Shown here: positions 24,349 to 63,011 of the stretch, in pieces
Layout of the letters: each line of letters starts with the position of its first letter
How positions within the stretch are numbered: position 1 is the stretch's first letter
From: Hydrogenothermaceae bacterium
GTDB taxonomy: Bacteria; Aquificota; Aquificia; Aquificales; Hydrogenothermaceae
DNA: 64,000 bases
Direction: 5' to 3'
NCBI GenBank assembly: GCA_015519975.1
Contig: WIAL01000034.1
Coordinates: forward strand, 1-64,000
The notes under the pieces: generated by a model
The model's database searches: none
The model's input: only the letters and a program-made list of their open reading frames with translations
What the model was told of the DNA's origin: nothing
Position numbers and translations under genes: made by a program

Positions 24349-24948
24349 TTACATACCTGCTGACATAATATGTCCTAATATATCGTTTTCCTCTTTGAAA
24401 CCAACAAACTCTATTTTGTCATTAATTACAACTTTAGGAACAGTAGAAACATTATACTCTAATGCCAGATTTTGAAAATCATGACAATCAATTGCATATG
24501 TTTTTATATAATCGCTGGCCATAGCAAAACTGTACATTTTCTTTAAAACCAGCGGACACCATCCGCAGGATTTTGTTATAAAAACTTTTACCTCAACAGG
24601 TTTATCAAGCATTTCAAGTATTTCAACTGTTCTTTCTGATAAATCATACTCATTTTTAGAAACCATCAAAATAGCATCTATAAATGTTTTAAATTCACCT
24701 CCAGAAGGCATCCCCATATATCTAATTCCAAAATCTTTTGTTGAATTTATAGCAATACAAGGCTTTCCAATACAGTAAAGATTTTCTTCTAAATAATTTA
24801 TCTTTTCACTTAGATTTGATATTTCTTCTAAAAGCTCTTTTATATTATTTGAAAGCTGTGAATTATCTTTATCTAAAATTAAATTTACAGGATCTATTAA
24901 ATTTTTAAAAACTTTACTTAGATTGTTTTTAATTTCTTCTGAAATCAT
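24349..24948 (-). CDS. protein disulfide oxidoreductase (PDO)-like protein with two thioredoxin folds
   Basis: A 199-residue protein. The C-terminal thioredoxin fold (about 115-199) has the active site C128-G-W-C131 and the cis-proline segment STVPKVV. The N-terminal half resembles the first fold of thermophile PDOs, with FGIRYMGMPSGGEFKTFIDAI, but keeps only C59-x4-C64 instead of a CxxC. PDOs handle intracellular disulfides in hyperthermophiles. The gene leads the PDO-dxr-rseP operon. A DnaA box at the origin edge overlaps its ribosome-binding region, with 6 bases between box and ATG. Confidence 0.78.
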   Translation of the reverse strand: MISEEIKNNLSKVFKNLIDPVNLILDKDNSQLSNNIKELLEEISNLSEKINYLEENLYCIGKPCIAINSTKDFGIRYMGMPSGGEFKTFIDAILMVSKNEYDLSERTVEILEMLDKPVEVKVFITKSCGWCPLVLKKMYSFAMASDYIKTYAIDCHDFQNLALEYNVSTVPKVVINDKIEFVGFKEENDILGHIMSAGM

Positions 24949-25012
24949 TTTAAGTTATCCACATTTTAAATTTTTTTTCTTTTTTTAATTTTATCATAAT
25001 AATATAAATCAA

Positions 25013-25027
25013 TAATAATAATAATAG
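25013..25027 (+). other. DnaA-trio tract of the origin unwinding element
   Basis: Read 3' to 5' away from the DnaA box at 25029, the top strand is GAT-AAT-AAT-AAT-AAT: five consecutive trinucleotides of the 3'-[G/A]AT-5' form that single-strand-binding DnaA filaments engage. It is one base from the box and continues into AT-only DNA. This predicts that melting starts on the left side of the origin. Confidence 0.7.
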
Positions 25028-25107
25028 ATGTGGATAACTTGTGGATAAGTAGGTTAAGTTATTGAAATTTAAGTAATTTTGCTTGTGGATAACCATGTGG
25101 ATAACTT
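25028..25107 (+). repeat. 80-bp origin direct repeat, copy 1
   Basis: Identical at all 80 positions to 25314-25393. It contains four whole DnaA boxes plus a 35-base box-free AT-rich spacer. Copy 1 adjoins the DnaA-trio tract; copy 2 does not. Confidence 0.95.
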
Positions 25108-25313
25108 GTGGATAGCCTGTGGATAACTTTTAAATTAAAAAATCCTTTATTTAGAATAACTTACAAGATTATGTTTTTGAAAAATCTTTAAATATCAATG
25201 ACTTACAAATGTGGATAACTTTCAGATTAAACCGAGTTATCCACAACTTATCCACAATTTGTATCGGAGTTATCCACAATTTTTGCTGAGTTATCCACAA
25301 CCTTATAAATAAA

Positions 25314-25393
25314 ATGTGGATAACTTGTGGATAAGTAGGTTAAGTTATTGAAATTTAAGTAATTTTGCTTGTGGATAACCATGTGGATAACTT
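25314..25393 (+). repeat. 80-bp origin direct repeat, copy 2
   Basis: An exact copy of 25028-25107, with starts 286 bp apart and the same orientation. The sequence after it diverges at once (a T-tract versus a further DnaA box), so the repeat boundary is sharp. Confidence 0.95.
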
Positions 25394-25447: not shown

Positions 25448-25630
25448 TTATTTAGAATCAAAGATTCTAATTTCTAATATCCTTTTTCCACATCTAGAAC
25501 AATTTGTGTCAAGAACGCCAGTATTTTCTGCTACAGGAATAACTTCTTTACCTTCCTGACCACATTTACATTTGAAGTTTACTTCTTCAAATCTAACGTC
25601 AGGTTCTTTTTTTACTTTAGCTTTTGCCAT
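25448..25630 (-). CDS. small zinc-ribbon protein
   Basis: A 60-residue protein with a C21-x-C23 pair and a C44-x2-C47 pair (CKCG, CSRCGK), which could bind one zinc ion. The Lys/Ala-rich start MAKAKVKKEP suggests nucleic-acid contact. It does not match the L31, L32, L33 or L36 ribosomal patterns. The AAGGAGGTGA ribosome site is one of the strongest in the window, implying high expression. It is the first gene right of the origin. Confidence 0.7.
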   Translation of the reverse strand: MAKAKVKKEPDVRFEEVNFKCKCGQEGKEVIPVAENTGVLDTNCSRCGKRILEIRIFDSK

Positions 25631-62656: not shown

Positions 62657-63011
62657 CAGCATAGCTTTTGGGTAAGCCGGATTCTGTTTTAGGCTGTCAT
62701 TTGTCTAAGCTCCCTACCCGAGGGCATCGGCCGGGCAAGCCTTAAAAGCCCTCCTACTTGGGATTGCTCCGGAAGGGGGTTGCCAGCTACCATCGTTGCC
62801 GATGGTACTGGTGAGCTTTTACCTCACCTTTTCACCTGAACCTTACCTCTTTATTTCGGCTGATCCCAGCCTACTTTAGGTAAGGTTGTCTATTTTCTGC
62901 GGCCCTATCCGTGAGGTTACCCCCACCTGCCTTTCGGCAGCTTCCTGCCCTTTGGAGTCCGGACTTTCCTCTCCTGCTTATGCAGGAGCGACAGCCCCAA
63001 AAGCTATGCTG
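62657..63011 (-). ncRNA. rnpB: RNase P RNA (bacterial type A-like, without P18)
   Basis: About 355 bases. The P1 helix is a perfect 16-bp pairing of the ends (62996-63011 with 62657-62672). The universally conserved 5' segment GAGGAAAGTCCGGACTCC, the GGATAGGGCCGCAGAAA segment and the 3' segment ACAGAATCCGGCTTACCC are all present. Between the GGGTAGG element and AAATGACAGCC, where E. coli has helix P18, only a few bases remain, so P18 is absent. This matches what is known for Persephonella and Sulfurihydrogenibium. The RNA is the catalytic part of the tRNA 5' maturation enzyme. Confidence 0.97.

Follow-up and report, generated by a model that had tools for sequence, protein, structure and literature searches.

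Introduction

The described systems closest to the locus reported here are the replication origins of Bacillus subtilis, Escherichia coli and Thermotoga maritima. At B. subtilis oriC (incC), the basal unwinding system (BUS) consists of tandem boxes (DnaA-box#6/7) facing GAT-type DnaA-trios, with more boxes upstream. Across BUS sequences, the trio-to-box distance peaks at 10-13 bp and GAT is the consensus box-proximal trio (PMC8287927). E. coli oriC lies away from dnaA and has mostly low-affinity boxes, an IHF-type site among them and an AT-rich DUE with TTATT. In the thermophile T. maritima, the origin combines tandem boxes separated by 2 bp with an inverted box, and its DUE contains trios; the box sequence is ACCTACCAC, and the sections of that study available to us report no repeated IHF-like sequence (PMC10316083). 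Our literature search returned no dedicated study of an Aquificota origin; automated predictions for complete genomes of the family may exist.

Here we analyze a cluster of DnaA boxes at 24955-25390 of a 64-kb stretch of DNA (the window) from a draft Hydrogenothermaceae genome. It shares with B. subtilis the tandem boxes facing GAT-type trios at the reported distance and the additional boxes upstream, but differs in its location away from dnaA, its almost uniformly perfect boxes, its repeated IHF-like sites and its inverted central array. The position relative to dnaA, an IHF-type site among the boxes and an AT-rich DUE with TTATT are common to E. coli oriC, whereas the several IHF-like sites at a fixed distance from boxes, the clear trios and the consensus boxes are not. 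The locus resembles the T. maritima origin in the 2-bp gap between tandem boxes, the presence of an inverted box and the trios in the DUE, and differs from it in box sequence and in its repeated IHF-like sequence. Systems of this kind are known; as far as we searched the literature, neither this combination nor any origin of this phylum has been described. We predict, with a probability of about 0.92, that this region is the single DnaA-dependent oriC of the genome, where replication would initiate.

Box cluster

The 436-bp cluster contains 15 exact DnaA boxes (TTATCCACA) and one box with a single mismatch, at 25107; by its base composition, a stretch of this length should have about 0.005 exact ones. 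An earlier sequence-only reading had counted the same 16 boxes, and all of them were recovered at the positions it gave. Across the whole 64-kb window, 44 boxes with at most one mismatch were found against 18.5 expected (shuffle maximum 28). The cluster is the sole place in the draft genome (1,922,930 bases, 65 contigs) where exact boxes lie at most 25 bp apart, and a reversed control pattern for paired boxes had no match in the same genome. The equally dense cluster elsewhere that the sequence-only reading had named as counter-evidence does not appear in the 1.92-Mb draft.

From left to right, the cluster begins with a lone plus-strand box (24955-24963), 6 bp upstream of the start codon of a PDO/thioredoxin-like gene and separated by an AT-rich region from the remaining boxes. 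Tandem minus-strand boxes adjoin that region on its right, followed by four more on the same strand (25084, 25096, 25107 and 25118; 25084-25126) spaced 12, 11 and 11 bp. A spacer (25127-25209), giving a box-to-box distance of 92 bp, leads to a single minus-strand box (25210-25218) that belongs to a composite IHF-like/box module. An inverted array on the plus strand follows (25237, 25248, 25270 and 25291; 25237-25299), with spacings of 11, 22 and 21 bp, and the right arm returns to the minus strand (25315, 25326, 25370 and 25382; 25315-25390). A perfect 80-bp direct repeat spans 25028-25107 and 25314-25393 on the plus strand, its copies 286 bp apart.

The minus-strand boxes are phased at an 11-bp period (R = 0.80, simulated P = 0.005) and the plus-strand boxes at 10.5 bp (R = 0.93, from five boxes only). 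The helical phasing first claimed is real at these moderate values, and the same-face arrangement drawn from it is plausible. The same reading had set the cluster apart from origins with degenerate sites. Its boxes are indeed near-perfect, but the trios and the IHF-like/box composites are more distinctive; these, at 25013-25027 and among the boxes respectively, were overlooked, as was the 80-bp direct repeat.

Predicted unwinding module

A BUS sequence is recognized by at least three DnaA-trios at most 16 bp from a DnaA box (PMC8287927). Such a sequence occupies 25013-25048. The tandem boxes (25029-25037 and 25040-25048, minus strand) directly adjoin five trios (25013-25027, plus strand), which read away from the box as 3'-GAT-AAT-AAT-AAT-AAT-5', and over a wider span, directly left of the tandem boxes, as 3'-A-GAT-AAT-AAT-AAT-AAT-AAC-5'. 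A gap of 1 bp separates the trios from the proximal box and one of 12 bp from the distal box, the latter gap falling inside the 10-13 bp peak. Around and beyond them, the proposed DUE (24964-25028) is 94% AT; for a 60-bp stretch of it, AT content ranks in the window's top 0.02%. By these sequence features, the tandem boxes, trios and 94% AT stretch are a basal unwinding system, at which strand separation is predicted.

In 24/41 family genomes, (AAT)3 occurs at most 20 bp from a box; those compared have it at the box cluster. The reversed control of the trio-plus-box pattern gave no matches in the 41. The window's own genome has the pattern at this cluster only. One metagenome-assembled genome (MAG), G030, has two such sites, L155 (on C5) and L156 (on C2). 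They share 84% identity across about 300 bp; their flanks showed no similarity. The genome may have two origins, or the bin may mix two organisms.

Gene context and GC skew

On the left, the cluster is flanked by a gene for a thioredoxin/PDO-like protein (24349-24948, minus strand), followed by dxr and rseP, and on the right by one for a 60-aa zinc-ribbon-like protein (25448-25630, minus strand) that had no match in Pfam or NCBIfam; a chemoreceptor gene and secA lie further right. The identities of dxr, rseP and secA come from reading their sequences, and gene reading with profile searches bore out the neighbours that had been named at the outset, PDO-dxr-rseP and a zinc-ribbon gene. The accompanying remark that dnaA, dnaN and gidA are not beside the cluster is true of the neighbours read. 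The cluster is on contig C25 and dnaA on C9, between transaldolase-like and homoserine kinase-like genes and with no exact box nearby. The genome (G000) has two separate dnaN-like (sliding clamp) genes, at C37:6308 and C23:50696. A rightward fork would meet the secA, lspA and dksA-like genes on that side head-on. Beside the cluster, neither a replication-initiator gene nor an integrase gene is evident. An Rfam scan of the window found RNase P RNA only (class A, 62657-63007, minus strand).

GC skew had been proposed as a test of origin position. No local switch in GC skew occurs at 25 kb. Sampling of about 20% of each of three relatives that have long contigs gave a replication-linked skew near zero, both raw and at fourfold sites, and the tabulated value for A. 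aeolicus is very low (PMC2099444). With replication-linked skew this negligible in the group, the test cannot decide the question. Gene distances from the cluster were not conserved between genomes, in a thin sample of much rearranged genomes.

Conservation of the cluster

Paired boxes were found in 29/41 family genomes, nearly always at a single place. Many genera share one series of box spacings, read in one orientation: 54 (or 44), 11/12, 90-93, 28, 21 and 21 bp; their boxes also face the same way as those in the window. Genera g5, g8, g9 and g10 and the other members of g1 depart from the series. The sequence between boxes has diverged among relatives, and the flanking genes vary between genera. 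The thioredoxin-dxr pair is beside the cluster in the window and in G013, G035 and G037, lies more than 1 kb away in G012 and is replaced by different genes elsewhere; searching for the locus with the thioredoxin-like neighbour as query retrieved two relatives only. The anatomy of the proposed origin was kept while its gene neighbours changed.

Several relatives show local variations. In G012 (L101:8887-9642), a ParA-family ATPase gene adjoins the origin cluster. Candidate origins of genus g8 (L114, L115 and L142) have repeated TGACATTAAAA / TGTCATTTTA units, iteron-like, beside few DnaA boxes. Loci L017-L026 have a partly palindromic GTTAGnnnnnnCTAAC element in the conserved 92-bp spacer, with changes on both of its sides in some genomes; the element is weak in the window. 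The origin of G040 (L107 / L032, genus g10) is about 900 bp long with widely spaced boxes and has 10 strict and 14 loose copies of the IHF-like motif described below.

A counterpart occurs in family f5 of the same class, probably Desulfurobacteriaceae. In G091, a cluster with a trio-like repeat has a dnaN-like gene on one side and a complete reading frame for DnaA on the other, both identified by reading the proteins, including the DDHTTVIHA signature of DnaA. In nine further f5 genomes from seven genera, tblastn gave the order dnaA, cluster, dnaN, so the cluster lies between the two genes in all 10 f5 genomes examined. These clusters likewise have TTATCCACA boxes in opposed arrays, and several have trio-like repeats; they differ from the window's in their canonical dnaA-dnaN location and in their number of exact boxes, 7 to about 12. 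A place between dnaA and dnaN is classic for oriC, and no other independent evidence argues as strongly that the class's box cluster would be the origin.

Probable origin identity

The region combines a box cluster that exceeds chance and is single in its genome with an AT-rich element beside the boxes. The claim that prompted this work, a chromosome origin away from dnaA, gains support from the BUS next to the boxes, the usual finding of one cluster per genome, the architecture kept among changing neighbours and the f5 counterpart. On the other side stand the lack of replication-linked skew in the three sampled relatives and of a local skew switch, the gene distances that vary between genomes, the head-on genes to the right and the draft state of the assembly; for the IHF-like layer described below, so do the subthreshold scores of the HU-fold proteins and the reversed orientation of two of the three sites.

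Not every DnaA-box locus is an origin. Loci of the datA/DARS type are regulatory, lie apart from oriC and have no unwinding element. The cluster could titrate or reset DnaA in this way with the true origin elsewhere, a reading in keeping with the separation of the cluster from dnaA and with the description of datA and DARS2 as DnaA-regulating loci that work with IHF. We consider it improbable. It requires an origin somewhere else, yet the genome has no second paired-box cluster to serve as one and no exact box at the dnaA locus; the trios and the 94% AT stretch are unwinding features; and the f5 counterpart sits between dnaA and dnaN. With an unwinding element present and a separate oriC candidate absent, we rejected a datA/DARS-type locus. 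Variation of the flanking genes between genera would also be expected if the cluster were a mobile-element origin, for instance that of an integrated plasmid. Yet a family genome with a cluster nearly always has just one, and its spacing is kept across genera; the neighbours are housekeeping genes, the thioredoxin-dxr pair recurring in several genera. Initiator and integrase genes are likewise not evident beside it, and a mobile-element origin was rejected as very improbable.

We therefore retain the chromosomal oriC reading. The sequence anatomy and its conservation are the direct result, and from them we infer protein binding, unwinding and initiation as follows. DnaA would bind the near-perfect boxes in three phased arms. 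A protein of IHF/HU type may bend the DNA 4 bp (or one turn more) from the boxes, folding the arms together. By analogy with work on the B. subtilis BUS, the tandem boxes (25029-25048) would then be the starting point from which DnaA extends onto the single-stranded trios (25013-25027), and the 94% AT stretch to their left would open for the helicase to load there.

Skew is unable to place origins in this deep-branching thermophilic group; the combined signature of boxes, trios and IHF-like modules points, throughout the family, to a location that can be tested. A defined origin would also supply a natural DNA partner for structural studies of DnaA, many of which have used the Aquifex protein from this phylum.

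IHF-like motif and candidate proteins

A second motif, WWTCARNNNNTTR, which is IHF-like, is repeated among the boxes in most family origins. It usually ends ahead of the start of a TGTGGA box, by 4 bp in 27 cases and by 14 bp in 11, two distances that differ by one helical turn. In the family origins, WWTCAANNNNTTR has a density of 4.5/kb; mononucleotide shuffles of these origins give 0.47/kb, and the sampled background of three relatives gives 0.23/kb. The core TCAATNACTTA has five copies in the window's genome, three of them inside the cluster. Copies of the module have a likeness of 0.70 within a genome, 0.65 within a genus and 0.55 between genera, a hint that modules may be homogenized within genomes.

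Published IHF sites follow the consensus WATCARNNNNTTR, with a preference for an upstream A-tract (PMC8421141). The site TATCAATGACTTA (25193-25205, plus strand), 4 bp before the box at 25210, matches this consensus exactly and has an A/T-rich upstream arm; TCAANNNNTTA gives the bases of the IHF-like site in the stretch 25180-25225. The site TTTCAATAACTTA (25055-25067, minus strand) has one mismatch to the consensus and is reversed relative to 25193. Its second copy (25341-25353, minus strand) is the same sequence, carried by the 80-bp repeat, so two of the three sites in the window are opposite to the usual orientation.

IHF has been described as limited to Proteobacteria, Nitrospirae and Nitrospinae. 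The window's genome encodes four proteins of the HU/IHF fold, none of which passes the NCBIfam cut-offs for IHF. The best candidates are on contigs C35 (85.0 bits to the IHF-beta profile, cut-off 115) and C8 (72.8 bits to IHF-alpha, cut-off 111), and because both fall below the cut-offs we term them IHF-like only. The C35 protein aligns with IHF-beta over RIEIRG-GSF, keeping Glu44 and Arg46, and Glu44 of IHF-beta has a role at a DNA-contacting position. Its Glu-x-Arg signature is common to 13 of the 20 relatives' proteins fetched, a set in which the stretches from g9 and g10 are HU-like or alpha-like paralogues. Two g5 proteins (L188 and L192; G013 and G014) keep IEIR and lack the RNPKTG arm, and their origins are without the motif. 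The C8 protein aligns with IHF-alpha through its SGFG segment, with an equivalent of Ser47, in an alignment covering the window's own protein only. Ser47 of the alpha and Arg46 of the beta subunit insert into the minor groove (PMC8421141).

The strict motif, defined after inspection of the sequences, is present in the origins of 20/24 genomes with an IHF-alpha-like match and 0/5 without (G001, G003 and G030-G032; Fisher P = 0.001, uncorrected, for lineages that share ancestry). The set includes several incomplete MAGs, and for G031 and G032 the origins are no more than candidate loci. The four genomes with the gene and no strict motif are G004, G007, G013 and G014.

An IHF-like layer at the origin is plausible at a little under even odds. 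More tentatively, and somewhat further short of even, Aquificota, which lie outside the phyla described as having IHF, may have a working IHF-like heterodimer, and Hydrogenothermaceae origins may be built of repeated IHF-bend/box modules (a fixed 4 bp or one more turn apart), copied within genomes, with some lineages losing motif and protein together. Such a layer raises the question of whether origin bending of the IHF type is older or more widespread than described. Alternatively, with not quite an even chance, the WWTCARNNNNTTR repeats may bind some other, unknown origin protein or form a DNA-structure element, either of which is compatible with oriC. Pointing to another binder are the core TCAATNACTTA, whose specificity exceeds that of the IHF consensus, the subthreshold scores of the HU-fold proteins and the four genomes with gene but not motif. 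Against this, the motif fits the IHF consensus together with its A/T-rich upstream sequence, the groove-inserting or DNA-contacting residues are conserved (Glu44 and Arg46) or have an equivalent (Ser47), and the strict motif is absent from the candidate origins of all five genomes without an alpha-like match.

Beyond the family, ATCAATAACTTA was used as an origin finder in families f2-f4, of which f2, in the same order, is probably Aquificaceae. It failed in most of these genomes; in G044, 3/7 copies lay at the box cluster. Two box clusters in genus g12 of family f2 (L109 and L110) have repeated TATCAATAACTTA-like sequences, which suggests that the motif extends beyond the family in that genus.
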